Assembly (NCBI GenBank): GCA_021791055.1
Contig: JAJYXI010000028.1
Span: 1 to 64,000, forward strand
Origin: Nitrospirota bacterium
GTDB lineage: Bacteria > Nitrospirota > Thermodesulfovibrionia > Thermodesulfovibrionales > Dissulfurispiraceae
Direction: 5' to 3'
Length of the DNA: 64,000 nucleotides
Positions 26,299 through 46,894 of this stretch are shown here, piece by piece. The notes under the pieces are model-generated. The model saw only the letters and a program-made list of their open reading frames with translations. It was not told the DNA's origin and did no database searches. Each line of letters begins with the position of its first letter. Position 1 is the first letter of the stretch. The position numbers and the translations under genes are program-made.

Positions 26299-26847
26299 TT
26301 GATAACATTAGTCTTAGGCGGAGCGAGAAGCGGTAAAAGCAGATTTGCTTTAGAGCTTGCAAATAATTTCATCTTTTCTAAAGAGGGGGTTCGTGGGGGA
26401 GACAGAGTCTCCCCCACTCTCAAGAAGGCGTATGTAGCTACTGCTCAGGCACTGGATGAGGAGATGAAAGAACGCATCGAAAAACATAAAAAAGAACGTT
26501 CAGGCGAGTGGGCAACCTTCGAAGAGCCGATGAACATCTCGACACTGATATCGGACATCAATAGAAGCTATGATGTAATTCTTGTTGACTGCCTGACACT
26601 ATGGCTTTCGAATCTGTTGCTTAATAACAAGAATGTTGAAGCAGAAATAGAGTCTTTTATTTCTTCCTTATCCACTATTCACTGTTCACTATTCACTGTC
26701 TCTAACGAGGTCGGACTTGGAATCGTCCCTGATAATGCCTTGTCAAGAAGGTTCAGAGACTTATCAGGCTATTTAAATCAGAAAATTGCATCAGTAGCAG
26801 ACGAGGTATATCTTGTGACTGCAGGAATCCCGATGAAAATACGATAG
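26299..26847 (+). CDS. cobU: Adenosylcobinamide kinase / phosphate guanylyltransferase
   Basis: Phosphorylates and guanylylates adenosylcobinamide for the nucleotide loop. P-loop [17 protein letters not shown] at the N-terminus, then [18 protein letters not shown] and [24 protein letters not shown] start with AGGGG upstream. An ACTATTCACTGTTC repeat inserts STIHCSLFT just before the VSNEVG motif, and a G-rich stretch encodes an extra loop ([11 protein letters not shown]). First gene after the riboswitch. Confidence 0.95.
26670..26700. repeat. ATTCACTGTTCACT tandem repeat inside cobU
   Basis: Four degenerate units (CCACTATTCACTGTTCACTA...) in frame. Confidence 0.78.
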
Positions 26848-26857
26848 GAGAGCCAAA

Positions 26858-27919: not shown

Positions 27920-27920
27920 A

Positions 27921-30875: not shown

Positions 30876-31918
30876 CAGATTTCCTTCGATACTTAACTTT
30901 TGACCTTCAGCCTTCAGCCTTCAGCCTTTCGCCTGTGGTGCTGCTTCTGGCATTCCTGCTCGACCTTGCCATCGGCGATCCGGGATGGCTGCCCCATCCT
31001 GTGAGGATTATGGGAAACGCTATAAGCAAAACAGAAGCATTTCTGAGAAAGTGGGAAGTGGAAAGTGGAAAGTGGAAACTAATAGAAAAACTCAAAGGCA
31101 TTATTCTTGTAATTACAATTGTCCTTCCCATCTTTTTTATCACATGGTTTATAGTTCATATCTCAACAAATTATTTTAAATCCCACTTCTTACTTCTTAC
31201 TTCTTACTTCTTACTTATATATCTCACATCCACTACAATCGCCATCCGTGAATTAATCAGTTCTGCAAGGCTTGTGATCGAATCCGCAAAGAATAAAGAT
31301 ATGGAATCCGCGAGGAGCAATCTTGGCATGATTGTAGGCCGCGACACCCAAAACCTTTCTGAGAAGGGAATACTAAAGGCAACCATAGAGACATCGTCAG
31401 AAAACCTTTCGGATGGGGTTATCGCTCCTTTATTTTATCTCGCAATCGGAGGACTTCCCCTTGCAATGGCATATAAGGCAATAAACACTCTGGATTCCAT
31501 GGTTGGATATAAGAACGATAAATACAAAAATTTCGGATGGGCAGCAGCACGGCTTGATGACTTAGCTAACTATATACCTGCAAGAATTACCGGACTACTC
31601 ATTGCCATCTCGTCATCTTTTATTTTCCATTCGCTATTCACTGTTCGCTATTCGCTGAAAACCATGCTCCGTGACGGAAGGAATCATCCAAGTCCAAACG
31701 CAGGCATTCCGGAAGCTGCAATTGCAGGCGCATTAGGCGTAAGACTCGGAGGGCCCTCAACATACAACGGCATCGAGATACAAAAGCCTTACATTGGAGC
31801 AGAAGAAACTGAGAACTATTTATCGGCTTCCGAAAAAGCAACTGATATAATCAAAGTGTCATCGCTGATTGGAACGGGCGTCGCTACAATTATTCTATAT
31901 GCAAGGAATATTCCATGA
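30872..31918 (+). CDS. cbiB: Adenosylcobinamide-phosphate synthase CbiB
   Basis: Membrane enzyme attaching the aminopropanol arm. AFLLDLAIGDPGWLPHPVRIMG, GRDTQNLSEKGILKATIETSSEN and DGRNHPSPNAGIPEAAIAGALGVRLGG are diagnostic. It has four to five membrane spans. Repeats encode the N-terminal QPSAFSLSP, an EVESGKWK segment, SHFLLLTSYFLLIYL (which falls in a hydrophobic span) and HSLFTVRYSL. The ATG overlaps the cobQ stop (ATGA). Confidence 0.95.
   Translation: MTDFLRYLTFDLQPSAFSLSPVVLLLAFLLDLAIGDPGWLPHPVRIMGNAISKTEAFLRKWEVESGKWKLIEKLKGIILVITIVLPIFFITWFIVHISTNYFKSHFLLLTSYFLLIYLTSTTIAIRELISSARLVIESAKNKDMESARSNLGMIVGRDTQNLSEKGILKATIETSSENLSDGVIAPLFYLAIGGLPLAMAYKAINTLDSMVGYKNDKYKNFGWAAARLDDLANYIPARITGLLIAISSSFIFHSLFTVRYSLKTMLRDGRNHPSPNAGIPEAAIAGALGVRLGGPSTYNGIEIQKPYIGAEETENYLSASEKATDIIKVSSLIGTGVATIILYARNIP
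30905..31658. repeat. Four tandem-repeat blocks inside cbiB
   Basis: TTCAGCC units (30905-30933), GTGGAAA units (31050-31080), ACTTCTT units (31181-31217) and ATTCGCT/ATTCACT units (31626-31658), all read in frame. Confidence 0.82.
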
Positions 31919-33051
31919 ATGAGCATGAAAGAAATTTAGAGCCGCACGGCGGGAATATATACAGGTTCATGGAGGAGTTCGGTATTAAGAAAGACGAAAT
32001 AATCGATTTCAGCGCGTCCATAAATCCCCTCGGCGTACCCAAGAGTGTGGCATCAGAGATTAAGGACAACATCAAATACCTGTGCAATTATCCCGATCCT
32101 GATGCAAAGCATCTCACACAGGCGATTGCAAGACATTCAGGCGTAGACCCGCAGCATATCCTGTGCGGAAATGGCAGCACAGAGCTTATATATCTTACTG
32201 TTCGGGCATTAAAACCCGAGAAGGTTCTTATACCCATGCCGACATTCTCGGAATATGAGCAGGCATTTAAAAACATGCATCCTGAAGGGGGCATCAAGGA
32301 AAAAATCTCATACTTTGTCATGTGGGAGAAAAATTCGTTCGAAATAAATCCGGAAAAGTTTATTGCTGCGATGTCAGGAAATGATTCATCAGCGACATAC
32401 AAATCATCGCTCGCAACATCGGTGGACATGGCATTCCTGTGCAATCCGAACAATCCGACAAGCGGACTGCTGGGAAAAGAGGATGTGCTGAAGATCGCAG
32501 AAGCTGCCAAGAACCTCAAATGTTATCTCGTTGTTGATGAGGCGTTCATAGATTTTGTCCCGGAAGAATCGGTGGCAAAAGAGGTTCGGAACAATCCCTA
32601 TCTCATTGTGCTGAGGTCACTGACAAAATTCTATGCCCTTTCGGGAATGAGAATCGGTTACGGAGTATTCCCCTCGTCCGTTCTGGACACTATTAATAGA
32701 CACAAAGAGCCATGGACAGTAAATACAATCGCACAATTGGCAGGAATCGCTGCGCTTAATGACATCTCTTACAGAAACCAGACATTCAAGGTTATACGGA
32801 ATGAAAAAAGGGTTTTGGAGGACGGCTTTAAACTGCTTGGAATCACTTATTTCCAGTCTCCGGTCAACTTTTATTTGACAAAACATGAGAATGCTCCAAA
32901 AATACTTGCATCGCTCAGGAGCAAAGGGATACTGGTAAGGGACTGCTCCAATTTCATGGGTCTTGATGGCTCATATATGAGAGTTGCGGTAAAATCAAAT
33001 AGAGATAATATGAGATTGCTTAAGGAGCTTGCGCATCTATGTCGGCAGTAG
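31915..33051 (+). CDS. cobD: Threonine-phosphate decarboxylase (HisC-like)
   Basis: PLP aminotransferase-fold enzyme supplying (R)-1-amino-2-propanol phosphate. Starts with the CobD-type EPHGGNIYRF and DFSASINPLGVPKSV; PLP Lys in RSLTKFYALSGMRIGYG; NPNNPTSG. 378 residues, no repeat insert. HisC is the alternative family, but the HGGN motif and context favour CobD. Overlaps cbiB and cbiA. Confidence 0.93.
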   Translation: MNEHERNLEPHGGNIYRFMEEFGIKKDEIIDFSASINPLGVPKSVASEIKDNIKYLCNYPDPDAKHLTQAIARHSGVDPQHILCGNGSTELIYLTVRALKPEKVLIPMPTFSEYEQAFKNMHPEGGIKEKISYFVMWEKNSFEINPEKFIAAMSGNDSSATYKSSLATSVDMAFLCNPNNPTSGLLGKEDVLKIAEAAKNLKCYLVVDEAFIDFVPEESVAKEVRNNPYLIVLRSLTKFYALSGMRIGYGVFPSSVLDTINRHKEPWTVNTIAQLAGIAALNDISYRNQTFKVIRNEKRVLEDGFKLLGITYFQSPVNFYLTKHENAPKILASLRSKGILVRDCSNFMGLDGSYMRVAVKSNRDNMRLLKELAHLCRQ

Positions 33052-34436
33052 TGATAGCAGGCACTCACAGCGGCTGCGGCAAGACGACTGCAACCTTGGG
33101 CATGCTTGCTGCATTGAAGAAAAAGGGATTGGAAGTCCAGCCATTCAAGGCAGGGCCTGATTTCATAGACACAGGACTTCACAGGATTATTACGGGCAAG
33201 CCGTCAAGAAACCTCGACTTATGGATGTGCGGTAAGGATTATATCCGGGATTGCTTCCATAAGTATTCTCAGGATGCGGATATATCCATTATAGAGGGAG
33301 TTATGGGTTTGTATGACGGAGATTTCAATACGGCAAAACTGGCAGATGTGCTTAATTTGCCTATTATCTTGGTTGTCGATGCCTATGGCATGGCAGAGAG
33401 CGCGGGCGCCGTGGTAAAAGGCTTTATGGAATACAAAAACCCAAGTTTAATCGCAGGCATAATCTTTAATCGGGTAGCATCGGAGAAGCATTACAGAAGG
33501 CTTAGAAACAGTATCCATGATATTGAGGTTTTAGGCTATCTCCCGAGGAATTTGGATTTTGAGATTCCTCACAGACATTTAGGACTGACCATTGCTGAAG
33601 AAAACCCTCTCACGGAAAAAAATATAGAAAGGCTTGCAGAGACGGTATTGGAACATGTGGATGTTGATGCAATATTGCATCAAGGGGCAAGGGTCAAGAT
33701 GTTGAACGACTTAAACGATTTGAACGATTTGAATGTTCAAGCAGTTCAAAAAGTTCAAATTGCCCCCTGCCCCCTGCCCCTTGCCCCTTCTGTAAGAATC
33801 GCCGTTGCTTATGACAGGGCATTCTGTTTTTATTATGAAGATAATTTGGACTTATTAAGAGATGCCGGAGCAGAAATAGTAACATTCAGTCCCATTTCCG
33901 ATACCAAAATCCCTGAAAATGCAGATGCCTTATATATCGGAGGTGGTTATCCGGAGCTTCATGCAAGGGATTTATCCCAGAATACATTCATGCTTGAATC
34001 TATCTATAACTGGGCAGATTCAGGAAAGCCGGTTTATGCCGAATGCGGCGGCCTGATGTATCTGTCACAGGGAATTCATGACTTTGAAGGGAATTTTTTC
34101 AAAATGATAGGCGTCTTCCCATTCGAGACAGTTATGAGAAAAGGCAGGCCGCACCTTGGTTATCGGGAAGTCCAACTAAAGGATAGCTGCATCATCGGGA
34201 AAGAGGGAGCTACGATAAAAGGGCACGAGTTTCACTATTCAGAGATAAAGGACAGAATCCAGAACACAGAATACAGAATACAGAAAAAAATTTATTCAGT
34301 AAAGGATAGTAATGGTCAGGATGTTCGGGATGAAGGTTACAGAGTTAAAAACACGATTGGAAGTTACATACACATCCATTTCGGCAGCAACCCTGACATC
34401 GCAGGGAATTTTATAGATCTTATAAAGGAGCATTAA
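33039..34436 (+). CDS. cbiA: Cobyrinic acid a,c-diamide synthase
   Basis: Amidates side chains a and c. N-terminal AGTHSGCGKTTATLGML, FKAGPDFIDTGLH; GATase nucleophile in AECGGLMYLS; C-terminal KGHEFHYSEI. A segment between the two domains is repeat-derived (LNDLNDLNDLNVQAVQKVQ, then APCPLPLAPS), as is IQNTEYRIQKK near the C-terminus. 465 residues. This is the B12 copy; a second CbiA-type gene (dsrN) lies in the dsr locus. Confidence 0.96.
   Translation: MSAVVIAGTHSGCGKTTATLGMLAALKKKGLEVQPFKAGPDFIDTGLHRIITGKPSRNLDLWMCGKDYIRDCFHKYSQDADISIIEGVMGLYDGDFNTAKLADVLNLPIILVVDAYGMAESAGAVVKGFMEYKNPSLIAGIIFNRVASEKHYRRLRNSIHDIEVLGYLPRNLDFEIPHRHLGLTIAEENPLTEKNIERLAETVLEHVDVDAILHQGARVKMLNDLNDLNDLNVQAVQKVQIAPCPLPLAPSVRIAVAYDRAFCFYYEDNLDLLRDAGAEIVTFSPISDTKIPENADALYIGGGYPELHARDLSQNTFMLESIYNWADSGKPVYAECGGLMYLSQGIHDFEGNFFKMIGVFPFETVMRKGRPHLGYREVQLKDSCIIGKEGATIKGHEFHYSEIKDRIQNTEYRIQKKIYSVKDSNGQDVRDEGYRVKNTIGSYIHIHFGSNPDIAGNFIDLIKEH
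33699..34286. repeat. Tandem-repeat blocks inside cbiA
   Basis: TTGAACGA units followed by complementary GTTCAAA units (33699-33759), CCCCTGC units (33761-33790) and AGAATAC units (34253-34286), in frame. Confidence 0.82.
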
Positions 34437-35464
34437 TGGAAAACATAATATTGATAGGGCACGGCAGTCCTAAGAAAGACGCCAACAACATCGAGCTTGC
34501 AGGCAGGCTTCTGCATACCGCAATACATCCCAACTGCACAAACAACTGCGTAAAGGTGGCATATCTCCAGTTTGCAGAGCCTGAGATTGCAGATGCAATA
34601 AAGGAGTGCGTCCATGGCGGAGTAAAAAGGATAATCATACATCCCTATTTCTTGAGCAGCGGAATGCATGTCACGAAGGATATCCCTGAGATAATAAAAG
34701 AGGCAGAGGAGATGTATCCTGATACGGAATTTATTTACACAGAGCCTCTCGGCATCCACGAAAAATTAGTGCATGTGGTGATGGAAAGGATATATGCGGC
34801 AAATGGCTTGCCTCCTCAGGATATTGAAAAGAGGAGCTTTGAGATAATATCAGAGGAGCTTGATTTCAGTGATATACCGCCGGAGCAGCTGCCCATTATA
34901 AAAAGAGTAATACATTCCACTGCCGACTTTGAATTCAAGAATACGCTCATGTTCCATCCCGATGCTATAAAGACAGGGATGGATGCGATAAAGTCAGGCA
35001 GAGACATACTCACAGATATTGAAATGGTGAAGACAGGAATAAACAAGAAGCTCCTCGAAAAGTGGGGAGGAAAGGTCATCTGCAATATACAGAACACAGA
35101 GCACAGAACACAGAGCACAGACAATAAAACAAGAGCAGAGATGGGAATAGAAAAAGCGTTAAAGGAAAACAGCAATATCGGCATCATAGCTATCGGAAAT
35201 GCGCCCACTGCATTATTGAAAGTTATTGAAATTTTTACCCCCCCTACTCCCCCCTTTAGTAAGGGGGGGACAGGGGGGGTGTTCACCGATTCACCGATTC
35301 TTGTGGTTGGCGTGCCTGTTGGATTCGTTAAGGCATTGGAATCAAAGGCGCTGCTTGCAGCACAGAAATTTCCATTTATAACCAATTTGAGCAGGAAAGG
35401 CGGCACGCCTGTAGCCGTAGCAATCGTAAATGCATTATTAAAAATGTCAGAGGAGGAAAAATGA
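34436..35464 (+). CDS. CbiX-CbiC fusion: sirohydrochlorin cobaltochelatase and precorrin-8X methylmutase
   Basis: Residues 1-125 form a small CbiX (IILIGHGSPKKDANNI with the catalytic His; IIIHPYFLSSGMHV) for cobalt insertion. From about 130 the CbiC/CobH methylmutase follows (VIHSTADFEFKNTLMFHPDAI, GRDILTDIEMVKTGI, AIGNAPTALLKV, VGVPVGFVKALESK). The first chelation step and a late 1,5-methyl shift are thus on one chain. Two repeat inserts interrupt the CbiC part: NIQNTEHRTQSTDN, and a C/G palindrome giving TPPTPPFSKGGTGGV right before ILVVGVPVGF. Confidence 0.92.
   Translation: MENIILIGHGSPKKDANNIELAGRLLHTAIHPNCTNNCVKVAYLQFAEPEIADAIKECVHGGVKRIIIHPYFLSSGMHVTKDIPEIIKEAEEMYPDTEFIYTEPLGIHEKLVHVVMERIYAANGLPPQDIEKRSFEIISEELDFSDIPPEQLPIIKRVIHSTADFEFKNTLMFHPDAIKTGMDAIKSGRDILTDIEMVKTGINKKLLEKWGGKVICNIQNTEHRTQSTDNKTRAEMGIEKALKENSNIGIIAIGNAPTALLKVIEIFTPPTPPFSKGGTGGVFTDSPILVVGVPVGFVKALESKALLAAQKFPFITNLSRKGGTPVAVAIVNALLKMSEEEK
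35085..35121. repeat. AGAACAC/AGAGCAC tandem repeat in cbiXC
   Basis: Five degenerate units (ACAGAACACAGAGCACAG...) encoding QNTEHRTQSTD. Confidence 0.82.
35238..35300. repeat. C-run/G-run palindrome plus TTCACCGA repeat in cbiXC
   Basis: C7-TACT-C6-TTTAGTAA-G7-ACA-G7 (35238-35279), immediately followed by TTCACCGATTCACCGATTC. In-frame translation TPPTPPFSKGGTGG. Confidence 0.88.
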
Positions 35465-36273
35465 AAAGACAGAACACAGAACACAGAACACAGAAGTCAG
35501 AAAGCAAAGTTAAAAACTATGGAATGTTATCGTTAATTGCTTTTTTACTGTTCACTGTTCACTATTCACTATTCGCTGTCTCTGAGGCTTATGCCATGCA
35601 CATTTCAGAGGGCATACTTCCTTTTAATTGGGCAGCGCTGTGGTTTGTGGTTGCACTGCCATTTGTTGCTTACGGGCTGTATAAGCTAAAAAAACTTTCT
35701 GCCGTTGACCTGTCATTTAAACCCCTTGTTGGACTGATGGCAGCAGTTGTCTTCATCATCTCATGCATGCCAATACCCGTGCCGACAGCAGGCACATGCT
35801 CCCACCCATGCGGGACAGGAATATCAGGGATACTTGTCGGCCCCGCTATCAGCATACTGATTACAGCAGTGGCATTGCTTATTCAGGCACTCTTTCTCGC
35901 CCACGGAGGGTTAAGCACATGGGGCGCAGATATAGTATCTATGGGAATAATGGGCTCCTTCGCAGGTTTCTTAACCTTTAAAATATTGCGCTCGATGAAA
36001 ATAAACATGGCAGTCTCAGGATTCCTGGCAGGACTCTTTGCAGACTGGGCAACATACATTACCACATCAGTTGAACTTGCATCGGGCATAAAAGGAGACT
36101 CTCCATTTGTACCACTTTTTACGAAGATACTTATAGCCTTTATACCTACCCAGCTTCCTCTTGGAATTCTTGAGGGAGCAATGACAGCAGGCATGGTTGT
36201 CCTGCTTTACAAGAAGCGCCCCGACCTTCTTGTAAAAATGCGTGTCTTAAAACCGGAGGAGGTGACAGCATGA
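35461..36273 (+). CDS. cbiM: Cobalt ECF transporter substrate-binding component CbiM
   Basis: Integral-membrane cobalt-capture subunit. After a signal sequence the mature N-terminus MHISEGILPFNWAALW carries the Met-His pair that coordinates cobalt; PTAGTCSHPCGTGISGILVGP and GGLSTWGADIVSMGIMGS are conserved. The first 20 residues (RQNTEHRTQKSESK) and the signal region HYSLFAVS are repeat-encoded, so the repeats extend the signal peptide. Overlaps the cbiXC stop by 4 nt. Confidence 0.96.
   Translation: MKRQNTEHRTQKSESKVKNYGMLSLIAFLLFTVHYSLFAVSEAYAMHISEGILPFNWAALWFVVALPFVAYGLYKLKKLSAVDLSFKPLVGLMAAVVFIISCMPIPVPTAGTCSHPCGTGISGILVGPAISILITAVALLIQALFLAHGGLSTWGADIVSMGIMGSFAGFLTFKILRSMKINMAVSGFLAGLFADWATYITTSVELASGIKGDSPFVPLFTKILIAFIPTQLPLGILEGAMTAGMVVLLYKKRPDLLVKMRVLKPEEVTA
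35469..35580. repeat. Tandem repeats in the cbiM signal region
   Basis: AGAACAC units (35469-35502) and TTCACTA/TTCACTG units (35547-35580) at the 5' end of cbiM. Confidence 0.8.
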
Positions 36274-36614
36274 AGTTCGGAGTTCAGAGTTTAGAGTTTA
36301 GAGTTAAAATAAAAACACTATTGCTCTTTTGCACTGCTGCACTATTGCTCATCTTCTTCAGCCTTCAGCCTTTTGCCTTCGGTGCTGAGAAATGGCCTGG
36401 TGTTGACGAATCCGTGGTCGAAAAATTTGCAAAGGAGCACGGCAGAGAGGCAAGGGAGCCGCTTATTAATACAGACCAGGGAGACCTGCTGCTCTTTGTA
36501 TTTCTGGTCGCAGGCACAGCCGGAGGGTTTGCAGCAGGATATTACTGGAGAACCCTGACAGAGGTCAGAAGCAGGAAATCAGAAGTCAGAATACAGACTA
36601 CAGAAGACAGATAG
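36270..36614 (+). CDS. cbiN: Cobalt transport protein CbiN
   Basis: Small accessory of the CbiMNQO transporter: two membrane spans (about residues 15-38 and 75-95) around the periplasmic segment EKWPGVDESVVEKFAKEHGREA, as in the family. Both ends (FGVQSLEFRVK; VRSRKSEVRIQTTEDR) are repeat-encoded, and the repeat supplies the stop region. Confidence 0.9.
   Translation: MKFGVQSLEFRVKIKTLLLFCTAALLLIFFSLQPFAFGAEKWPGVDESVVEKFAKEHGREAREPLINTDQGDLLLFVFLVAGTAGGFAAGYYWRTLTEVRSRKSEVRIQTTEDR
36274..36612. repeat. Tandem repeats at both ends of cbiN
   Basis: GAGTTTA units (36274-36308) and TCAGAAG/ACAGACT units (about 36563-36612). Confidence 0.72.
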
Positions 36615-36620
36615 AGAGAC

Positions 36621-37388
36621 ATGGAACTATTTTCTGAATATTTTAAGAAAGACCACATCCTTTCAAGGATTGATGCAAGGGTAAAGCTCCTTGTTGCTCT
36701 GACCATTCTTATCATGGTCTTAAGCTATAAGGGGTTTGTCCTTCCAGCGCTGGTGACCTTGTTTTGCCTGTTTTTATGCATTACAATGAAAGTGCCTTTA
36801 AGGGTCTTTATGCTAAGGTTCTCAGAGCCTGTCTTTATCGCATCCATAATACTCTTTTTAAAACTGTTTTTTTCAGGAAAGGATGTCCTTTTCTCCATCT
36901 CACTTCCTGCTTCTCACTTCTCACTTTTTACTTTAACAGGATATAAAGACGGACTTATGGACGGGCTGATGATTGCAATCAGAATTTTAGGCGCCGTATC
37001 GATAGTTGCTGTAATGGGACTTTCCACGCCGTTTACAGAATTCATTGCAGGCCTTTCGTGGCTAAGGGTTCCAAAGGGGTTCATAGAGGTATTGATGTTT
37101 GCGTACAGATATATTTTTGTGCTCTTTGAGGATGCAATGGTCATTTATAATGCACAGAAAAACCGCCTCGGCTACTCAAACATAAGACGGGGATTGGGTT
37201 CATTCAGCGCTCTAACAGGCTCTCTTATTCTCAAGGCATTTGAACACAGTCATAATATCACAACAGCAATGATACAAAGGGGTTATGACGGCAATATGCC
37301 TATGCTGAAACATAAGCCGTTTAAATTGTCAGAGGTTGTCGTCTCGGTACTATTTATAACCGTAATGGGATTTGTATGGAAGATATAA
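36621..37388 (+). CDS. cbiQ: Cobalt ECF transporter transmembrane component CbiQ
   Basis: ECF T-component. N-terminal HILSRIDARVKLLVALTILI and the coupling motifs with Ala-Arg-Gly-type residues late in the protein (SLILKAFEHSHNITTAMIQRGYDG). Five to six membrane spans, 255 residues. A TTCTCAC repeat encodes PASHFSLFTL between spans. The 3' end overlaps cbiO by 13 nt. Confidence 0.94.
   Translation: MELFSEYFKKDHILSRIDARVKLLVALTILIMVLSYKGFVLPALVTLFCLFLCITMKVPLRVFMLRFSEPVFIASIILFLKLFFSGKDVLFSISLPASHFSLFTLTGYKDGLMDGLMIAIRILGAVSIVAVMGLSTPFTEFIAGLSWLRVPKGFIEVLMFAYRYIFVLFEDAMVIYNAQKNRLGYSNIRRGLGSFSALTGSLILKAFEHSHNITTAMIQRGYDGNMPMLKHKPFKLSEVVVSVLFITVMGFVWKI
36901..36930. repeat. CACTTCTC tandem repeat inside cbiQ
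   Basis: Three to four degenerate units, in frame. Confidence 0.65.
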
Positions 37389-38257
37389 AAACAAGACAGA
37401 ACACAGAAGACAGAACGCAGATAAAGGGCATTCGCATATCAGTGAAAATAGATTCCTTCAAATATCCTGACGGGACGACTGCCCTGTATGATATAAGCCT
37501 CGAGATAAAAAGAGGCGAATTCATCGGCATACTCGGTTCGAATGGTTCAGGAAAAACAACCCTGTTAAAGGTAATAGACGGACTGATGAAGGACTTTGAA
37601 GGCAACATTCTTCTTGATGGAGCTAATATTAAAAAACTTTCTCCGAAGGAGATTTATAAAAAGGTCGGTCTTGTTTTTCAAAATCCAGACGACCAGCTCT
37701 TTGCCACAACCGTATTTGAAGATGTGGCATTCGGGCCGATAAATATGGGATTCCCTGAAGATGAGGTTATAAGCCGTGTAACCACTGCCCTTAAAGATGT
37801 TGATATGAACGGCCATGCAAAAAAATCCATTCACAACCTCAGCTTCGGACAGAAGAAAAGGGTATGTATTGCAGGACTTCTTGCGATGGGACATGAGATG
37901 CTTCTCCTTGATGAGCCGACTGCCGGATTAGACCCGATGGGAGAGTATAAAATGATGAACCTTCTGAAGAAGCTCAATAAGGAAAACGGAGTGACTATTG
38001 TCATGGCTACGCACAGCGTTGACCTCGTTCCATTATTCCTCAACAGGCTTTATATTTTAAGCAAGGGGCATATTATCAGAGGCGGCATACCGGAGGATGT
38101 ATTTACAGCTCCGGAGGATATGTCAAATGTAAAACTGAGGCTTCCGCAGATTGCAGAGCTGATTTACAAACTAAAGCATGAGGATAATATCCCTTTCGAA
38201 AAAATCCCGCTCACTATTGGCGAGGCAAGAAGGGAGATTGTGAGGTTATATGCGTAG
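37376..38257 (+). CDS. cbiO: Cobalt ECF transporter ATPase CbiO
   Basis: ABC ATPase driving cobalt uptake. Walker A GILGSNGSGKTTLLKV, Q-loop LVFQNPDDQLF, signature NLSFGQKKRVCIAG, Walker B MLLLDEPTAGLDPMG, switch His in MATHSVD. The first ~15 residues (KTRQNTEDRTQ) are repeat-encoded. 293 residues. Confidence 0.97.
   Translation: MEDIKTRQNTEDRTQIKGIRISVKIDSFKYPDGTTALYDISLEIKRGEFIGILGSNGSGKTTLLKVIDGLMKDFEGNILLDGANIKKLSPKEIYKKVGLVFQNPDDQLFATTVFEDVAFGPINMGFPEDEVISRVTTALKDVDMNGHAKKSIHNLSFGQKKRVCIAGLLAMGHEMLLLDEPTAGLDPMGEYKMMNLLKKLNKENGVTIVMATHSVDLVPLFLNRLYILSKGHIIRGGIPEDVFTAPEDMSNVKLRLPQIAELIYKLKHEDNIPFEKIPLTIGEARREIVRLYA
37391..37420. repeat. AGAACAC/AGAAGAC repeat at the cbiO start
   Basis: Four degenerate units encoding RQNTEDRTQ at the N-terminus. 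Confidence 0.75.
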
Positions 38258-38768
38258 AGGATATATACAAGTATATACAGGTAACAGCAAAGGCAAAACC
38301 ACAGCAGCCCTTGGTCTCGCATTGAGGGCAGCAGGCGCAGGACTTAAAATATTCATTGCCCAGTTTATTAAAAAAAGGAGATGCAGCGAACATAAGGCGC
38401 TCGAAAGGTTTAAAGACCTGATTACTATCAATCAATACGGAACCGGCTTCTTAAAAGGCGAAAAACCGACAAAGTCAGAAATTGATGCTGCCAGAAAAGG
38501 ACTTGAAGAGGTGAAAAACATAATTTCATCTAAAACCTATGACATGGTGGTGCTGGATGAGATAAATGTTGCAGTTCACCACAAACTCCTGAATGTCGAA
38601 GACATTGTGGATCTGTTAAATTCCAGGCCTTTAAACACGGAGGTTGTTCTTACAGGAAGATATGCCGATGAGAAAATTATAGAAATGGCAGACCTTGTCA
38701 CAGAAATGAAGGAAATAAAGCATTACTACAAAAAAGGCGTAAAAGCGAGAAGGGGCATTGAACACTAA
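38250..38768 (+). CDS. cobO: Cob(I)yrinic acid a,c-diamide adenosyltransferase
   Basis: CobA/CobO/BtuR family: P-loop VYTGNSKGKTTAALGLALRAAGAG at residues 6-29, then VVLDEINVAVHHKLL and VVLTGRYADEKIIEMADLVTEM. Transfers adenosyl to Co(I). 172 residues. Overlaps cbiO by 8 nt. Confidence 0.96.
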   Translation: MRRGYIQVYTGNSKGKTTAALGLALRAAGAGLKIFIAQFIKKRRCSEHKALERFKDLITINQYGTGFLKGEKPTKSEIDAARKGLEEVKNIISSKTYDMVVLDEINVAVHHKLLNVEDIVDLLNSRPLNTEVVLTGRYADEKIIEMADLVTEMKEIKHYYKKGVKARRGIEH

Positions 38769-38795
38769 CAAATAGACTGACAAAAAGGGGATAAA

Positions 38796-39575
38796 ATGAA
38801 AAAAATATATCTTATCGGCATAGGTACTGGCAATCCTGAACACCTCACGATTCAGGCTATAAATACATTTAAAAAGGTGAATGTCTTTTTTATTCTTGAG
38901 AAGGAGTCTGAAAAAAACGAAGACCTTGTTAAACTCAGGAAGGAGATATTACAAAGGTATCTGCCCGATGGAAGATATAGGGTTATGACAGTAAAGATTC
39001 CTGAAAGAAAAAAAGGAGGCAGGGAATTAGAGGTCTATAAAGAAAGGGTCGCCTCATGGAGAAAACAAAAGGCAGAGATTATATCTAACTTAATAAAACA
39101 GGAGATAGCTGATGGTGAAACAGGCGCCATTCTTATCTGGGGCGATCCTGCCCTTTATGACGGCCATATAGAGATACTCAATTATATCCTTAAAGAAGGA
39201 TGGGTAGATTTCGAATTTGAAGTTATACCGGGAATAACAAGCATGCAGGTATTGACAGCAAGGCATAAGATTCCCCTGAATTTCATTGGCGAGAGTATCC
39301 TTATCACTACTGGCAGGAGACTGAAAGAGATTCATCCTGATGATGTTAAAAATAGTGTGGTGCTGCTGGATAATTATCTAACTTACAGAAACTTTACGGA
39401 TGCAGACCTCAATATTTACTGGGGTGGTTATCTCGGAACAGAAGAAGAGATTCTCATTTCTGGCAGATTAAAGGAAGTCCTCGATGAGATTATAAGGACA
39501 AGGAATGAGGCAAAAAAGAATAACGGCTGGATAATGGAGACATATATTTTGAGGGCCCGGGACAATAATGAGTAA
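38796..39575 (+). CDS. cobF: CobF-type precorrin-6A synthase (C1 methyltransferase)
   Basis: Tetrapyrrole methylase fold (LIGIGTGNPEHLTIQAI; WGDPALYDGHIEIL; EVIPGITSMQVLTARHKIPL). The features VFFILEKESEKNEDLVKLRKEIL, PERKKGG and the long C-terminal NNGWIMETYI match CobF, the aerobic-pathway enzyme that methylates C1 and removes the acetyl group, rather than CbiF, CbiL or CbiH. Every other ring enzyme here is of the cobalt-early route and no cbiD is seen, so CobF probably does the C1 methylation normally done by CbiD. Identity is by motif memory; an alignment would settle it. Confidence 0.8.
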   Translation: MKKIYLIGIGTGNPEHLTIQAINTFKKVNVFFILEKESEKNEDLVKLRKEILQRYLPDGRYRVMTVKIPERKKGGRELEVYKERVASWRKQKAEIISNLIKQEIADGETGAILIWGDPALYDGHIEILNYILKEGWVDFEFEVIPGITSMQVLTARHKIPLNFIGESILITTGRRLKEIHPDDVKNSVVLLDNYLTYRNFTDADLNIYWGGYLGTEEEILISGRLKEVLDEIIRTRNEAKKNNGWIMETYILRARDNNE

Positions 39576-40899
39576 TAAACTCTATGTAATAGGCATTGGC
39601 TATAAGCCACTTGATAAGAAAGCACGGGAGATTATTTCTCGTGCAGGCGTCATCCTTGCATCAAAGAGGCTATCTGAGGTCTTTAAAGGCTACGATGAAT
39701 TTGAGGCAGTTAAAGATAAAATCAAGGTGATCAATAACGTCGATGAAACAATTAACTTCATAAAGGCGATAGTTGAAGATACCCCCCCTACTCCCCCCCT
39801 TACCAAGGGGGGGAAGGGGGGGGTTATTCCCCTTATCAAGGGTGGGGTTGTCCTCCTTGCCTCTGGAGATCCCATGTTCTTCGGAATTGGAAGAAGGGCA
39901 GTAAAAGAATTCGGGAAAGACATGGTTGAGATACTGCCTGATTTATCAAGCATCCAGATGGCATTTTCACGGATAAAAGAGCCATGGGATAACGCATTTT
40001 TAATGAGCCTCCATGGAGGACCTGATCCTGAAAAAAGAAGGAGGCTGCCTTATGAGATAAAGGATATTCCGCTCTTGCTTCAGAGGCATAATAAAATTGC
40101 CATCCTTACTGATAAAGAAAACAACCCATCTGTTATTGCTAAAGGAATTGCCATCAGCCATCAGCCATCAGCCATAAGGATATATGTCTGTGAAAGGCTT
40201 GGCTATGCTGATGAGAAAATCACGGAAGGAACTCCGGAAGAGATTGCGGCAATGTCCTTTTCAGAGCCAAATATAGTCATAATTCAGCAGTTAGCCGTCA
40301 GCGGTCAGCCGTCAATAGTCACCTTCGGACTGAAAGAGAATGAAATCTCACATTCAAAGGGACTCATAACAAAGGACGAAGTCAGAGCCGTAACAATTCA
40401 TAAACTAAGGCTTCCCCAAAAGGGAGTATTTTGGGACATCGGCGCAGGCTCTGGTTCAGTATCAATAGAGACCGCAAGATTATATCCGGAATTAAAAGTG
40501 TTTGCTGTCGAAAAAGACGAAGAACAGATTAATCATATCAGAGAAAACAAGAAGAGATTTAATGCACCGAATATCGAAATAATAAAGGGAGAAGCCCCTG
40601 ATGCCTTGATAAACCTCCCACCCGCTGACAGGGCCTTCATTGGAGGCAGCAGCGGGAGGCTCGAAAAAATAATAGGCTTTATCGCTAAAATGTCGGTTAA
40701 AATTATTGTTATAAATGCAACTACAATAGAAACATTGAATGAGGCAATTCTGCATCTCAAAAATAATGGATTCGATGCGGAGATATCTGAAGTCTCTGTG
40801 TCAAGATCAAAAACCATCTCGGGCAGAAGGCACTTGAGTGCATTAAATCCAGTATTCATAATAGGCGGAGATACTATGTCTTCCTTGAAAGAGGATTAA
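39568..40899 (+). CDS. cobL: CbiE-CbiT fusion (CobL-like) C5/C15 methyltransferase and decarboxylase
   Basis: The N-terminal half is a CbiE methylase (LYVIGIGYKPLDKKAREII; LASGDPMFFGIGRRAV; SLHGGPDP). The C-terminal half from about residue 275 is the CbiT class I SAM fold (GVFWDIGAGSGSVSIETARLYP). Together they methylate C5 and C15 and decarboxylate the C12 acetate. Inserts: a C/G palindrome plus partial copy (TPPTPPLTKGGKGGVIPLIKGG) sits before the LLASGDPMFFG motif; ISHQPSAIRI and QQLAVSGQPSIV come from TCAGCCA-type repeats. Confidence 0.94.
   Translation: MSNKLYVIGIGYKPLDKKAREIISRAGVILASKRLSEVFKGYDEFEAVKDKIKVINNVDETINFIKAIVEDTPPTPPLTKGGKGGVIPLIKGGVVLLASGDPMFFGIGRRAVKEFGKDMVEILPDLSSIQMAFSRIKEPWDNAFLMSLHGGPDPEKRRRLPYEIKDIPLLLQRHNKIAILTDKENNPSVIAKGIAISHQPSAIRIYVCERLGYADEKITEGTPEEIAAMSFSEPNIVIIQQLAVSGQPSIVTFGLKENEISHSKGLITKDEVRAVTIHKLRLPQKGVFWDIGAGSGSVSIETARLYPELKVFAVEKDEEQINHIRENKKRFNAPNIEIIKGEAPDALINLPPADRAFIGGSSGRLEKIIGFIAKMSVKIIVINATTIETLNEAILHLKNNGFDAEISEVSVSRSKTISGRRHLSALNPVFIIGGDTMSSLKED
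39782..39847. repeat. C-run/G-run palindrome with a partial second copy in cbiET
   Basis: C7-TACT-C7-TTACCAA-G7-AA-G8, then ATTCCCCTTATCAAGGGTGG, in frame. Confidence 0.88.
40150..40316. repeat. TCAGCCA and GTCAGCC tandem repeats in cbiET
   Basis: Units at 40150-40176 and 40286-40316, in frame. Confidence 0.75.
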
Positions 40900-41616
40900 A
40901 TGACAGGAAAACTTTATGTCATAGGGGTCGGCCCAGGAGACCCTGAGTTGCTGACACTAAAGGCAGTGCGTATACTCAAAGATATATCCTGTATCTGTGT
41001 CCCGAAAGGGAGGGAAGAGGGGAGCAGCCTCGCATTGTCCATTGTTGAGAAAGCTGTCAATATTAATGCCAAGGAGATAATAGAAGCCCATTTCCCCATG
41101 AGAAAGACAAAAGTTGTCGAACATGGTTGCGAATTGGATGCCAAGTGGCAGGAGACCATCGAGACCGTTTACAGCAGATTGAATAAAGGCACTGATACGG
41201 CATTCATCACCATCGGAGATCCAACAATCTACAGCACATTCTTCTATTTATACGACAAGCTCCTCGAACTCAATCCTGAACTCGATATCGAAATAATTCC
41301 AGGCGTGTCATCTATAAATACCGCAGCAGCAAGGGCAAATCTGTCCTTAAGCCTTGCGGATGAAAAGATCGCCATCCTCCCTGCAACCTACACTGATAAT
41401 ATAAAAGAGACGCTGAAGAGGTTTGATACTGTCGTTCTCATGAAGGTTCACAGGGTATTTGATAAAGTCCTGAAAATACTTGATGGGATGAATCTTACAG
41501 ATAATGCTGTTTATATCTCACGGGCAGGAATGGATGACGAAAAGATATTCAAAAACATAAGGGATATTAAAGAAAGCGACCTTAATTACTTTTCGGTGGT
41601 GATAATCAAGAAATGA
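40900..41616 (+). CDS. cbiL: Precorrin-2/cobalt-factor II C20-methyltransferase
   Basis: SAM tetrapyrrole methylase: LYVIGVGPGDPELLTLKAVRIL, ITIGDPTIYSTFFYLYDKL, EIIPGVSSINTAAARANLSL. The YSTF motif and 238-residue length fit CbiL/CobI. Introduces the C20 methyl that is later lost in ring contraction. Overlaps cbiF by 4 nt. No repeat insert. Confidence 0.94.
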   Translation: MTGKLYVIGVGPGDPELLTLKAVRILKDISCICVPKGREEGSSLALSIVEKAVNINAKEIIEAHFPMRKTKVVEHGCELDAKWQETIETVYSRLNKGTDTAFITIGDPTIYSTFFYLYDKLLELNPELDIEIIPGVSSINTAAARANLSLSLADEKIAILPATYTDNIKETLKRFDTVVLMKVHRVFDKVLKILDGMNLTDNAVYISRAGMDDEKIFKNIRDIKESDLNYFSVVIIKK

Positions 41617-42368
41617 GCAAGGTCTATTTCATAGGCGCAGGGCCCGGCGATCCGGAATTGATAACCATTAAAGGCAGGAAATTGCTTGATAACGCTGATG
41701 TCGTAATCTACGCGGGAAGCCTTGTTAATCCGGCGCTGTTAAAAGGTATTAAGGCAGCAATATATGATTCAGCAAAAATGACCCTCAATGAAATAATCGA
41801 GGTTGTTGAGAACTCCATAAACAAGGGGGGAACAGTTGTTAGGCTGCACACAGGTGATACATCTTTCTACAGTGCCATATCAGAGCAGATAGAAAAACTT
41901 CGTGCATTGGATATTGAATACGAGGTTGTTCCCGGCGTTTCTTCTGCAATGGCTGGCGCAGCAATTCTCGGCCAAGAGCTCACCATACCTGAGATCAGCC
42001 AGACGGTTATATTCACAAGGCTTGAAGGAAGAACGCCTGTGCCCGAAACAGAAAGGCTCAGCGATTTGGCAAAACATAAAGCAACAATGGTAATTTTTTT
42101 GAGTGTTGGCATGATTGAAAAAGTGAGGGATGAGCTTTTGCAGGGCTATTCAGGGGATACCCCAGTTGTAGTTATCGAAAAGGCATCATGGCCCGAGCAG
42201 AGGATTGTGAAAGGGATACTGAAGAATATTGCCGAAATGGTAAAAGATGCCGGCATCAAAAAGACCGCATTGATCTATGTAGGCGAATCATTAAAGGCCT
42301 CAGAGGTGTCTCTCGGCAAAGAATCAAAACTTTATGACAAGGATTTCGAGCATGAATACAGAAAATAA
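41613..42368 (+). CDS. cbiF: Cobalt-precorrin-4 C11-methyltransferase
   Basis: VYFIGAGPGDPELITIKGRKLL, DVVIYAGSLVNPALL, RLHTGDTSFYSAISEQIEKL and VPGVSSAMAGAAILGQELTIPEISQTVI are CbiF/CobM signatures. 251 residues, no repeat insert. Methylates C11 before CbiG opens the lactone. Confidence 0.96.
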   Translation: MSKVYFIGAGPGDPELITIKGRKLLDNADVVIYAGSLVNPALLKGIKAAIYDSAKMTLNEIIEVVENSINKGGTVVRLHTGDTSFYSAISEQIEKLRALDIEYEVVPGVSSAMAGAAILGQELTIPEISQTVIFTRLEGRTPVPETERLSDLAKHKATMVIFLSVGMIEKVRDELLQGYSGDTPVVVIEKASWPEQRIVKGILKNIAEMVKDAGIKKTALIYVGESLKASEVSLGKESKLYDKDFEHEYRK

Positions 42369-44295
42369 TACAGCAATTCTTTACATAACAGACAATGGCC
42401 GTAATCTTGCTGAAAGGCTTGGAAGGCTTTATCCCGATGCCCGGATTGTAAAATTTAAATCAGAAGTTCTTCCTGAAATATGGAATGGAAGCAGAAATCT
42501 CATTTTTATTATGGCGACAGGCATCGTGGTAAGGACTATTGCGCCGCTTATAAAAGACAAAAAGACAGACCCTGCAGTGATAGTGCTGGATGAGAAAGGC
42601 AATTTCGCTATCAGCCTTTTAAGCGGACATCTTGGCGGCGCAAATGAAATTGCAAAAGAAATAGCGAATTTCTTAAATTCACACAATTCTCCCTCACGCA
42701 CAGAGGCCGTTATAACAACAGCATCCGATGTAAATAACCGGACTTCCGTAGATTTATGGGCAAAGGAGAATAATCTCGTCATTGAAGATTGGGAACTCGT
42801 TCCACAAATAGGCACAAGGCTTCTCAATAATGGCGCATTGAGGATATATTTGGAGAAGTCAGAAGTTAAATTACCAGAGGATTTCTTAAGAGTGTCAGAG
42901 CCGAGGTTTGGGGATGTGCTCATTACAAACAAGAAGGATGTCTATATTTCCCGTTCCTCATGTACATATGCTTCAGGGGAGCAGTGCTCCACAAGCTCAT
43001 GCCGCGTAAAAGGCCAGCTCTATCTCCGCCCGAAAAATCTTGTCATCGGAATTGGCTGTAACAGCGGGACATCAGCCGAAGAGATAGAGGTCTCTGTAAA
43101 AAGAGTGCTCGATGGACATAATTTATCATTTCTATCCGTAAAATCCATTGCTACCATTGACATAAAAGGCAATGAGCCAGGATTACTTTCATTTGCAGGA
43201 AAATATAATTTTCACATTGATACCTTTACACCTGATGGACTCAACGTAGTAGCCCAGAAAGCTGAAAACATAGAAAAATCGGATGTAGTATTTAATGCAA
43301 CAGGGGCATATGCAGTAGCTGAACCAGCAACACTCCTTGCATCGGGCTCAAATGAACTCCTTGTGCAAAAACAAAAGACAGGCAATGTAACAATAGCAGT
43401 AGCAGAAAAGAAGTCAGAAGTCAGAAGTCAGAAGTTACCCCCCCATCCCCCCCTTGCCAAGGGGGGGCTAAAGGGGGGTGGCAAAATCTATATCGTCGGC
43501 ACAGGTCCGGGAAGTATCGAACATATAATCCCCTATGCGCAGGATGCCATAAGAAAATCTGATGTTATTGTGGGATACGGAACATATCTCGATTTGATAC
43601 ACGAGTTGGTTAAAGATAAAGAGGTTGTATCCACAGGCATGACACAGGAAATTGACAGATGCCAAAAGGCAATAGAGCTTGCGCTGTCTGGAAAAACCGT
43701 TTCTGTCATAAGCGGCGGAGACCCGGGAATATATGCCATGGCAGGACTGGTGTTTGAGATACTCAGAGCACAGAATACAGAGCACAGAATACAGACTACA
43801 AATGAAAAAAATCTGACTTCTGACTTCTGTCTTCTGTCTTCTGAAATTCATGTTGAGGTCATCCCCGGCATTTCTGCCCTGAATGCGTGTGCAGCAAGGC
43901 TCGGCGCTCCGCTCATGCATGACTTTGCAGCAATAAGCCTTTCAGACAGGCTGACGCCGTGGGAACTCATAGAGAAAAGGCTTGCAGCAGCAGCAATGTC
44001 AGATTTTGTAACTGTCCTCTACAATCCCAAAAGCATGGGACGGCCTGAACACATCAACAAGGCACGGGCAATATTCCTCAGGCACCGGAGCACCGAAACA
44101 CCTGTCGGCATTGTAAAAGGCGCCATGAGAGAAAATGAACGGATTATTATCACAAATCTGAGGGACATGTTCAATTACGATATTGATATGCAGACAACGG
44201 TGATTATCGGCAACTCGCAGACATTTACATGGAATGACTATATGATTACACCGAGGGGATATGAAAAAAAGTGGAGTAATGGAGTGGTGGAGTAA
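42352..44295 (+). CDS. CbiG-CbiH fusion: lactone hydrolase and C17-methyltransferase/ring contraction
   Basis: Residues 1-~345 are CbiG (IFIMATGIVVRTIAPLI, LLSGHLGGANEIA, LVIGIGCNSGTSAEEIE, NVVAQKAENI). From ~375 CbiH follows (IYIVGTGPGSIEHIIPYAQDAI, VISGGDPGIYAMAGLVFEIL, VEVIPGISALNACAARLGAPL). A Cys cluster (CTYASGEQCSTSSC) lies in mid-CbiG and is unexpected. The CbiG-CbiH linker carries a GTCAGAA repeat plus a C/G palindrome (PPHPPLAKGGLKGGG); a second repeat block is in CbiH. ATG at 42352 (AAGGA, 8 nt upstream) is preferred to 42334. Confidence 0.95.
   Translation: MNTENNTAILYITDNGRNLAERLGRLYPDARIVKFKSEVLPEIWNGSRNLIFIMATGIVVRTIAPLIKDKKTDPAVIVLDEKGNFAISLLSGHLGGANEIAKEIANFLNSHNSPSRTEAVITTASDVNNRTSVDLWAKENNLVIEDWELVPQIGTRLLNNGALRIYLEKSEVKLPEDFLRVSEPRFGDVLITNKKDVYISRSSCTYASGEQCSTSSCRVKGQLYLRPKNLVIGIGCNSGTSAEEIEVSVKRVLDGHNLSFLSVKSIATIDIKGNEPGLLSFAGKYNFHIDTFTPDGLNVVAQKAENIEKSDVVFNATGAYAVAEPATLLASGSNELLVQKQKTGNVTIAVAEKKSEVRSQKLPPHPPLAKGGLKGGGKIYIVGTGPGSIEHIIPYAQDAIRKSDVIVGYGTYLDLIHELVKDKEVVSTGMTQEIDRCQKAIELALSGKTVSVISGGDPGIYAMAGLVFEILRAQNTEHRIQTTNEKNLTSDFCLLSSEIHVEVIPGISALNACAARLGAPLMHDFAAISLSDRLTPWELIEKRLAAAAMSDFVTVLYNPKSMGRPEHINKARAIFLRHRSTETPVGIVKGAMRENERIIITNLRDMFNYDIDMQTTVIIGNSQTFTWNDYMITPRGYEKKWSNGVVE
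43408..43480. repeat. GTCAGAA repeat plus C-run/G-run palindrome at the CbiG-CbiH junction
   Basis: GAAGTCAGAAGTCAGAAGT (43408-43435), then C7-AT-C7-TTGCCAA-G7-CTAAA-G6 (43438-43480). It exactly separates the two enzyme domains. Confidence 0.88.
43762..43842. repeat. AGAATAC and complementary CTTCTGA repeats in CbiH part
   Basis: AGAGCACAGAATACAGAG-type units (43762-43800) and CTTCTGACTTCTGTCTTCTG (43813-43842), forming an imperfect inverted pair, in frame. Confidence 0.8.
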
Positions 44296-45593
44296 TGGGA
44301 AATAAAACGGTTGCTTTTCTTTGGGACGAATCGTTTCTATGGGGATTAATGGCATATAATGCCCTAAAAGCAACAGGTCTACCTTTTGAACTTGTTCGCT
44401 CAGACGATATAAAAAATGGAAAGCTCAAAGATTACAGAATGCTCTTTGTGCCCGGCGGATGGGCATCGAATAAGATGAAAACCCTCGGTGAAAAGGGCAT
44501 CAGCGAAATAAAGAAATTTGTGAATAGTGGAGGCAACTATCTCGGATTCTGCGGTGGGGCAGGTTTTGCAACACTTGATGGCATCGGTCTCTTAAATATA
44601 AAAAGGATACCCACAAAGCAGAGAGTGCCGAGCTTCAGCGGAAAAATTTGTCTGAACATAAACGAACACCATATTTGGAAAAGAATAGGCAAACATTCGC
44701 ATGAAGTCACCGATTCACCGATTCACCCATTCACCCATTCACCTATCTTCCATGCCTGGTGGCCTTCACAATTTCTAATTAATGACAAGAGCATAAAAAT
44801 ACTCGCCACTTATGGGAATGCCCTTCCTGATTCTTTTAGCTCTGATTTGAATGTGGGAGATGTGGAAGCTAATGGCGGCTGGTCAGAAATGGAAGAGATT
44901 TACAAGATCAATCTCAATCCCACCCGGTTAAAAAATGAACCTGCTGTGGTGGAAGGCTCTTCCGGAAAAGGAAAAATGATATTATCGCTTATACATTTCG
45001 ACACGATAGATGATGCAAATGGAGCAATAGTATTAAGCAATCTATGGGAATATCTCTCTGGTCAGAAGTCAGAAGAAACCCCAAAACTTAACTCATCACT
45101 CCATCACTCCATTATTCCATCCATTCTTGCCGACCTTGAATCAGAAGTCGATGAATTAATCTCTCTCGGTATCAGAAATTTCCTCTGGTTCTGGAAAAAT
45201 CCAATGCTTTTGCAGTGGCGGAGGGGTGTAAGGGGGCTTGAATACTGCACCCTTTATGTAATGATAAAGGAAATTGCAGAAATACTCAAAAAACAGCAGT
45301 CAGCAGTCAGCAGTCAGTTAGATTTAGAGAAGATTAAAGAGTTGTTAATAATGTTTACAGAAAAAGCTAAACAGCTTTTGATTTTAGAAAGATATGCAAT
45401 GCAGAATGGGCATATAACCCCCCTTAGCCCCCCCTTATCAAGGGAGGGATGGGGGGGTGAGAATATCCCTGAAATACACGAAATGCGGACAGAGCTTTTC
45501 GGAAATTCAAAAAGTCATGGAGGATTGTTTAAAAAGCTTATAGATGAAGTGGATAATGTTTTATATGCATTAATAAAAAATAAGGAGGCGTGA
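44295..45593 (+). CDS. GATase-like (BPL_N type) protein of unknown role in the B12 operon
   Basis: 432 residues. The N-terminal ~250 form a class I glutamine-amidotransferase-like fold of the kind found at the N-terminus of eukaryotic biotin-protein ligases: KTVAFLWDESFLWGLMAYN, MLFVPGGWASNK, and a nucleophile elbow GNYLGFCGGAGFAT with Cys. The C-terminal ~150 residues are helical and unknown. Repeat inserts: SPIHPFTHSPI, SSLHHSIIPS, QQSAVSSQ and a C/G palindrome (TPLSPPLSREGWGG). Start overlaps the cbiGH stop (TAATG) and its stop overlaps the next ATG (TGATG). Function in corrinoid metabolism is not known to me. Confidence 0.7.
   Translation: MGNKTVAFLWDESFLWGLMAYNALKATGLPFELVRSDDIKNGKLKDYRMLFVPGGWASNKMKTLGEKGISEIKKFVNSGGNYLGFCGGAGFATLDGIGLLNIKRIPTKQRVPSFSGKICLNINEHHIWKRIGKHSHEVTDSPIHPFTHSPIFHAWWPSQFLINDKSIKILATYGNALPDSFSSDLNVGDVEANGGWSEMEEIYKINLNPTRLKNEPAVVEGSSGKGKMILSLIHFDTIDDANGAIVLSNLWEYLSGQKSEETPKLNSSLHHSIIPSILADLESEVDELISLGIRNFLWFWKNPMLLQWRRGVRGLEYCTLYVMIKEIAEILKKQQSAVSSQLDLEKIKELLIMFTEKAKQLLILERYAMQNGHITPLSPPLSREGWGGENIPEIHEMRTELFGNSKSHGGLFKKLIDEVDNVLYALIKNKEA
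44708..45318. repeat. Tandem-repeat blocks inside the GATase-like gene
   Basis: TTCACCGA/TTCACCCA units (44708-44744), CATCACTC units (45088-45122) and CAGCAGT units (45294-45318), in frame. Confidence 0.8.
45418..45457. repeat. C-run/G-run palindrome inside the GATase-like gene
   Basis: C6-TTAG-C7-TTATCAA-GGGAGGGAT-G7, in frame; slightly degenerate copy. Confidence 0.82.
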
Positions 45594-46894
45594 TGACACA
45601 GCTTGAAAAGGCAGTAAGAGGAGAAATTACAGAAGAGGTGAAGAGAGTTGCATCCGATGAAGGTCTCGACCCCGAGATTGTAAAATCAAGGGTTGCATCA
45701 GGAAAGATTGTAATACCTGCAAATAAAAACAGAAAAAATAAGATCGTGGGTATCGGCAAAGGCTTAAGGACAAAGATAAATGCATCCATCGGCACATCAA
45801 CAGACATTGCGGACATCCTAATGGAGGTGGAAAAGGCAAAGGTCGCAGAGCAGTACGGTGCGGATACATTGATGGATTTAAGCGTGGGCGGTGATGTGCG
45901 TGGAATAAGAAGGGCTGTAATGGAGGCTATAAATTTGCCAATCGGAACAGTTCCGCTTTACGAGGCATTTGCCATTGCAATCGAAAAATACGGCGGTGCC
46001 GTGAACATGCCTGAGGAATTGCTCTGGGATGTGCTCGAAATGCAGTGCGAAGAAGGGGTAGCATTCATGGCAATCCACTGCGGCATAAACCTTATGACAA
46101 TTGAACGCTTGAAAAAGCAGGGCTACCGCTATGGTGGACTCGTATCAAAGGGCGGCTCGTATCTCACAGCATGGATGCTTCACAACAATAAAGAAAACCC
46201 ATTGTACGAGAAATTCGACAGGGTTGCTGAAATACTGAAAAAACATGATGTTGTATTGAGCCTCGGAAACGGCTTCAGGGCAGGCGCAATACATGACTCC
46301 ACAGACAGGGTGCAGATTCAGGAGTTGATAATCAACTGCGAGCTTGCAGAAACAGGGAGGAACATGGGATGCCAGACAATGGTCGAGGGCCCGGGGCATA
46401 TACCAATAGACGAAATAGAGGCGAATGTGCTCCTCGAAAAGAAGATGAGCGGGGAATCGCCATTTTACATGTTAGGCCCGATAACTACCGACATTGCCCC
46501 CGGATACGACCACATAACATCAGCAATCGGCGCAGCGCTTTCATCTGCCTATGGCGCTGATTTCATATGCTATGTAACCCCTGCAGAGCATTTAGGATTG
46601 CCGTTTCCTGAGGATGTGAGGCAGGGAGTAATTACAGCAAAAATTGCAGCATATATCGGTGATATGGTCAAGCTCAAAAAACGCGACAGGGATAAGGAGA
46701 TGTCAATTGCAAGAAGAGACCTCGACTGGCAGAAGCAGTTTGAACTCGCAATTGCAAAGGATGAGGCAATAAGGATCAGAAGCGAAAGGCAGCCTTCAGC
46801 CGAAGACTCATGCACCATGTGCGGACAGTTCTGCGCATCGAGGATTTTGAAGGGAATGTTTGATAATGAAATAAGAAGCGGTGGAAAGTGTTGA
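45593..46894 (+). CDS. ThiC paralog, candidate 5-hydroxybenzimidazole synthase (BzaF-like)
   Basis: Radical-SAM ThiC fold: TQLEKAVRGEITEEVKRVA, MDLSVGGDVRGIR, GLVSKGGSYLTAWMLH, LGNGFRAGAIHDSTDRVQ, VEGPGHIPIDEIEAN, LGPITTDIAPGYDHITSAIGAA and LCYVTP-like CYVTPAEHLGLP. The C-terminal cluster motif is CTMCGQFC, i.e. CX2CX3C, one residue shorter than the CX2CX4C of ThiC. With its position at the end of the B12 operon, this points to the BzaF branch, which makes the lower-ligand precursor from aminoimidazole ribotide. Plain thiC under B12 control is the alternative. ATG at 45593 has AGGAGG. Confidence 0.85.
   Translation: MTQLEKAVRGEITEEVKRVASDEGLDPEIVKSRVASGKIVIPANKNRKNKIVGIGKGLRTKINASIGTSTDIADILMEVEKAKVAEQYGADTLMDLSVGGDVRGIRRAVMEAINLPIGTVPLYEAFAIAIEKYGGAVNMPEELLWDVLEMQCEEGVAFMAIHCGINLMTIERLKKQGYRYGGLVSKGGSYLTAWMLHNNKENPLYEKFDRVAEILKKHDVVLSLGNGFRAGAIHDSTDRVQIQELIINCELAETGRNMGCQTMVEGPGHIPIDEIEANVLLEKKMSGESPFYMLGPITTDIAPGYDHITSAIGAALSSAYGADFICYVTPAEHLGLPFPEDVRQGVITAKIAAYIGDMVKLKKRDRDKEMSIARRDLDWQKQFELAIAKDEAIRIRSERQPSAEDSCTMCGQFCASRILKGMFDNEIRSGGKC

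Follow-up and report, generated by a model that had tools for sequence, protein, structure and literature searches.

A CobF-family protein in the operon position of CbiD in anaerobic cobalamin biosynthesis of Nitrospirota: a putative in situ replacement

The closest described counterparts of the gene presented here are CobF of the oxygen-dependent pathway, the deacetylating precorrin-6A synthase (structures 3ND1 and 2NPN), and CbiD (PF01888), the cobalt-precorrin-5B C1-methyltransferase. Several surveys take the presence of CobF to indicate oxygen-dependent B12 synthesis (PMC4303638, PMC6593275, PMC545781), and for the anaerobic pathway the removal of the two-carbon unit by CbiG is established (PMC7242693). 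In a passage of PMC3621897 that cites Streptomyces work, CbiD is suggested as CobF replacement in aerobic pathways. The same enzyme pair appears to be exchanged in our case but in the opposite direction, with CobF entering the anaerobic pathway. A survey of gut genomes applied the rule "(CobF or CbiD)" in both routes, and none of the genomes it surveyed contained CobF (PMC4403557). This rule likewise treats the two proteins as alternatives in a pathway with CbiK/X plus CbiG, but it is bookkeeping and the hybrid is not described there. In the literature searched, which was thin on subscription journals and on the classic comparative genomics of B12, no CbiG pathway with CobF is described, and it is well supported that known parts occur here in a new combination.

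Here, we analyzed a window of 64,000 nucleotides from a Nitrospirota bacterium (genome G000; 2.55 Mb, 87 contigs, 99.75% complete). The closest named relatives are metagenome-assembled genomes (MAGs) of Thermodesulfovibrionales. The features concerned are:

25931..26165, + strand: cobalamin riboswitch, heading the operon just upstream (RF00174, 109 bits, E 9.2e-27)
26299..46894, + strand: whole cobalt-early B12 cluster of 21 collinear ORFs
34436..35464, + strand: cbiX-cbiC fusion, early cobalt chelatase and methylmutase (NF004057 169 bits, NF033198 82 bits, both under the curated cut-offs, yet both halves are covered)
38250..38768, + strand: btuR/cobA adenosyltransferase, upstream neighbour of cobF and slot marker (TIGR00708, 190 bits)
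38796..39575, + strand: cobF, anaerobic subfamily, proposed cobalt-precorrin-5B C1-methyltransferase replacing CbiD (TIGR02434, AlphaFold2 model, dN/dS)
39568..40899, + strand: cbiE-cbiT fusion, downstream neighbour of cobF and slot marker (TIGR02467 and TIGR02469)
40900..41616, + strand: cbiL, C20-methyltransferase (TIGR01467, 250 bits)
41613..42368, + strand: cbiF, C11-methyltransferase (TIGR01465, 339 bits)
42334..44295, + strand: cbiG-cbiH fusion, cobalt-precorrin-5A hydrolase and C17-methyltransferase (PF11760, PF01890, TIGR01466)
44295..45593, + strand: P0002, uncharacterised protein of 432 aa with BPL_N/GATase-like N-terminus, after cbiG-H (PF09825, 41 bits)

The complete order is cobU, cobT, cobS, cobC, cbiP, cbiB, cobD, cbiA, cbiX-C, cbiM, a small ORF, cbiQ, cbiO, btuR, cobF (the 15th of the 21 ORFs), cbiE-T, cbiL, cbiF, cbiG-H, P0002 and a thiC-like gene. 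Besides the cobalt-early enzymes the cluster thus codes for cobalt uptake (CbiMQO) and late B12 steps. Profile matches bear out the sequence-only reading, in which CobF stood amid CbiX, CbiL, CbiF, CbiG and CbiH in an operon of 21 genes: the anaerobic set of CbiX/K, CbiL, CbiH, CbiF and CbiG is present, and from the pathway's members CbiD and CbiJ are absent from the whole genome. The ThiC-family protein that ends the operon (45590-46894) scores above the ThiC cut-offs and under the BzaB cut-off, which lends no support to a lower-ligand role. Short inserts, PPTPPLTKGGKGG and FTPPTPPFSKGGTGG among them, occur in two of the operon proteins (34436-35464 and 39568-40899). They are probably repeat elements inserted in frame, and they lower the identity between relatives.

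The ORF at 38796-39575 encodes 259 aa and reaches 308.6 bits against TIGR02434, the NCBIfam equivalog model for CobF (curated cut-off 195.8 bits), with profile positions 1-249 of 250 aligned. The second-best family, cobI_cbiL, follows with 72.7 bits; there is also a match to TP_methylase. In contrast with its proposed role, the protein shows no homology to CbiD (PF01888) and belongs to an unrelated family (TIGR02434/TP_methylase). The AlphaFold2 model (pLDDT 90.5) has the CobF structures 3ND1 (TM 0.88) and 2NPN (TM 0.84) as nearest solved structures and the best CbiL at TM 0.69; the protein is therefore predicted to have the CobF fold and to be nearer to CobF than to CbiL, CbiF or SUMT. As phylogeny also places it inside CobF, the original assignment of this ORF holds. 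The dN/dS values of CobF are 0.09-0.14, and purifying selection acts on the gene.

With the oxygen-pathway enzyme this CobF shares family, fold, length and the logic of C1-methylation, but it is found beside CbiG and CbiX and without CobG, and it belongs to a separate phylogenetic group. A branch with 100/99 support splits 20 CobFs of the anaerobic group from 29-35 others that originate mostly from oxygen-pathway bacteria. Since the outgroup branches are long, the rooted reconstructions have to be read with care: the anaerobic group was paraphyletic in one of them and a clade in another, where the AU test did not reject the alternative (p-AU 0.476). Residue 89 is arginine in anaerobic CobFs and mostly histidine or asparagine in aerobic ones. 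Directly after the GDPxLYD motif, which is common to both groups, positions 121-126 read YDGHxE in the anaerobic proteins and mostly YD[SQ]TxR in the aerobic ones. The window protein carries R89, G123-H124 and E126 in place of the oxygen-pathway residues. As it passes TIGR02434, these residues mark a subfamily and not an exclusion from CobF; they may reflect a lost deacetylation or the acceptance of a cobalt-bound substrate. Three purple sulfur bacteria (Halochromatium, Chromatium okenii and Thiobaca; G109-G111) possess CobF of the oxygen clade together with CobK; CbiD is absent there and no CobG scores above the cut-off.

For CobG (TIGR02435) no match was found in the window genome and none above the cut-off in the 20 genomes with anaerobic-type CobF, hence nothing points to the oxygen route. 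The possibility that CobF serves an aerobic side branch was rejected for this lack of CobG.

A profile search with PF01888, positive in six control genomes, gave zero matches for CbiD in the window genome. The lack of cbiD, at first noticed for the operon only, thus extends to the genome, and no copy resides elsewhere. CbiD is absent also from the CobF-bearing relatives, among them G002 (one contig, 100% complete). In a phylum-wide sample of 296 Nitrospirota genomes CobF occurs in 13 and CbiD in 106; among 100 relatives CobF (above cut-off) occurs in 12 and CbiD in 54; no genome in either sample has both. If only the 70 CbiG-bearing genomes among the first 100 are considered, 12 have CobF, 53 CbiD, none both and five neither (Fisher p 5.8e-10, a value that overstates the evidence for exclusion because the genomes are related and not independent; the samples are phylogenetically clustered). 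A stronger argument is the occurrence of both states within single genera (see below). Most of the genomes are MAGs, so any one absence might be due to a gap in the assembly. In four of the five genomes with neither gene a contig ends at or near the slot, and one of the five (G075) retains the C-terminal end of CbiD at a contig start; G011 is the one that contig ends do not explain. The same state in the single contig of G002 means that the pattern of CobF without CbiD is not an assembly artefact. Outside this group the exclusion has an exception, as CobF and CbiD occur together in one aerobic, CobG-bearing Pseudomonas, and the two are therefore not incompatible everywhere. In Pseudomonas chlororaphis (G112, C20:193732-197184) CobG lies near CbiD, with CobF elsewhere in the genome.

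In close relatives the two genes share a slot, btuR-[cobF or cbiD]-cbiE-T, with flanking gene order otherwise much alike, and operons with cobF are continuous across it. Both states are found inside genus g1 (G003 versus G000-G002), genus g13 (G024 and G028 versus G015) and genus g29 (G043 and G072 versus G054). The DNA of the window was compared in 60-base steps with G015, a member of another genus (g13). Identity amounts to 87-100% over cobF from 38801 to the gene end, 48-87% just upstream and 75-80% at the start of cbiE-T just downstream, and protein identities are 95% for CobF, 77% for BtuR and 71% for CbiE-T. A peak confined to cobF is the pattern expected for single-gene exchange, and it looks as if cobF had moved alone.

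CobF and CbiG occur together also in MAGs that carry the label Deltaproteobacteria or Desulfobacteraceae (L073, L075, L076) or only "bacterium" (L077, L078). In the related anaerobe MAG L073, with a different operon arrangement, an intact cobF (5528-6310) is directly preceded by two broken genes in 5070-5527, namely a 5' remnant of cbiD (TIGR00312 positions 1-52, E 1.9e-11) and, between it and cobF, a weakly matching 3' remnant of cbiL (TIGR01467 positions 162-230, E 9.4e-5). A second, intact cbiL lies upstream. The simplest reading of this scar is that a donor stretch with the end of cbiL and cobF landed in cbiD and removed its remainder. Operons of relatives show further peculiarities. Radical SAM/SPASM-like proteins lie in or beside the B12 operon at L052 6772-8109, L072 17349-18725 and L077 248-1700, the last being CbpB (TIGR04163); the window operon showed no such protein. 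In a CobF operon of G080 (L059 3573-4652) a CobN/Mg-chelatase C-terminal end (PF02514) is located immediately 5' of cbiQ.

We consider it probable (about 0.83) that CobF replaced CbiD in situ as C1-methyltransferase acting on cobalt-precorrin-5B. A non-orthologous replacement of this kind had been proposed from the operon alone, and mutual exclusion, shared slot and the L073 remnant speak in its favour. Cobalt would be inserted by CbiX and the ring methylated and contracted by CbiL, CbiH and CbiF, before CbiG would open the delta-lactone, the two-carbon fragment leaving as acetaldehyde to yield cobalt-precorrin-5B. SAM-dependent CobF would then methylate C1 and form cobalt-precorrin-6A, the step normally performed by CbiD, with which it would share the reaction as it shares the exact operon position. 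Because CbiG already removes the two-carbon unit, CobF would need only to methylate C1, and deacetylation as in aerobic CobF would be superfluous. This substrate and reaction we infer, and CobF within an otherwise anaerobic cobalt-early pathway is consistent with the hybrid pathway anticipated at the outset. What counts against the replacement is the substrate of known CobF, which is cobalt-free precorrin-5 with the acetyl group still attached.

CobF might instead retain its aerobic-style activity and both remove acetate and methylate C1 on cobalt-precorrin-5A or its opened form, with CbiG bypassed or restricted to lactone opening. Removal of the two-carbon unit with C1-methylation is known CobF chemistry (PMC7242693) and the modelled fold is shared with aerobic CobF, but CbiG is kept in all 12 CobF genomes among the 100 relatives, which favours C1-methylation only, and the anaerobic proteins differ at conserved positions beside GDPxLYD; we regard this activity as unlikely. 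Less probable still is a passenger role of CobF, in which either an unrecognised enzyme methylates C1 or the position stays unmethylated and 1-desmethyl cobamides result. Engineered E. coli without CbiD makes 1-desmethylcobyrinic acid (Roessner 2005, as cited in PMC7242693), but a passenger is at odds with the exact replacement in the slot, the complementary distribution, the purifying selection on cobF and its gene-specific transfer. That cbiD is hidden by an assembly gap or contamination, as 87 contigs and the many MAGs among the relatives might suggest, is largely refuted and has a negligible chance given the completeness of the window genome, the single contig of G002, 13 concordant genomes and operons unbroken over the slot.

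The second missing enzyme has a different distribution. CbiJ (PF02571) gave no match in the window genome, with positive controls, so its reported lack in the operon stands for the genome as well. It does not belong to the CobF replacement; a connection of the two was rejected since CbiJ is missing in all sampled family members, including those with CbiD. It is absent from all 21 anaerobic CobF genomes examined and from most CbiD genomes of the order. Such a gap was noted earlier in delta-proteobacteria (PMC545781) and also in haloarchaea, there along with one at the CbiD/CobF step (PMC3403918). Strong matches to P0002 occur in 52 of the 70 CbiG genomes; the 14 CbiJ-bearing ones have none. Its distribution is complementary to that of CbiJ, which may reflect operon inheritance since L066, the only CbiJ operon that was read completely, is differently arranged. 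The N-terminus of P0002 resembles GATase/BPL_N and no obvious reductase, and structure prediction from an alignment of four sequences reached pLDDT 46, too low for a useful fold comparison. P0002 is a candidate only for a connection with the missing cobalt-precorrin-6A reductase. Two consecutive non-standard steps, C1-methylation by a CobF subfamily with altered active site followed by C18-C19 reduction (normally by CbiJ) by or with P0002, are conceivable but rather doubtful.

CobF serving the anaerobic route would break the rule by which it marks the oxygen-dependent one, and two unrelated C1-methyltransferases are suggested to be interchangeable. The pairs of near-identical operons represent a natural test of the substrate tolerance of CobF (cobalt-bound versus cobalt-free, deacetylated versus acetylated), and the long-known CbiJ gap is sharpened by the candidate gene P0002. 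CobF seems to have taken the place of CbiD in certain bacteria that avoid oxygen, and the two B12 routes of the textbooks may thus be less distinct than taught.
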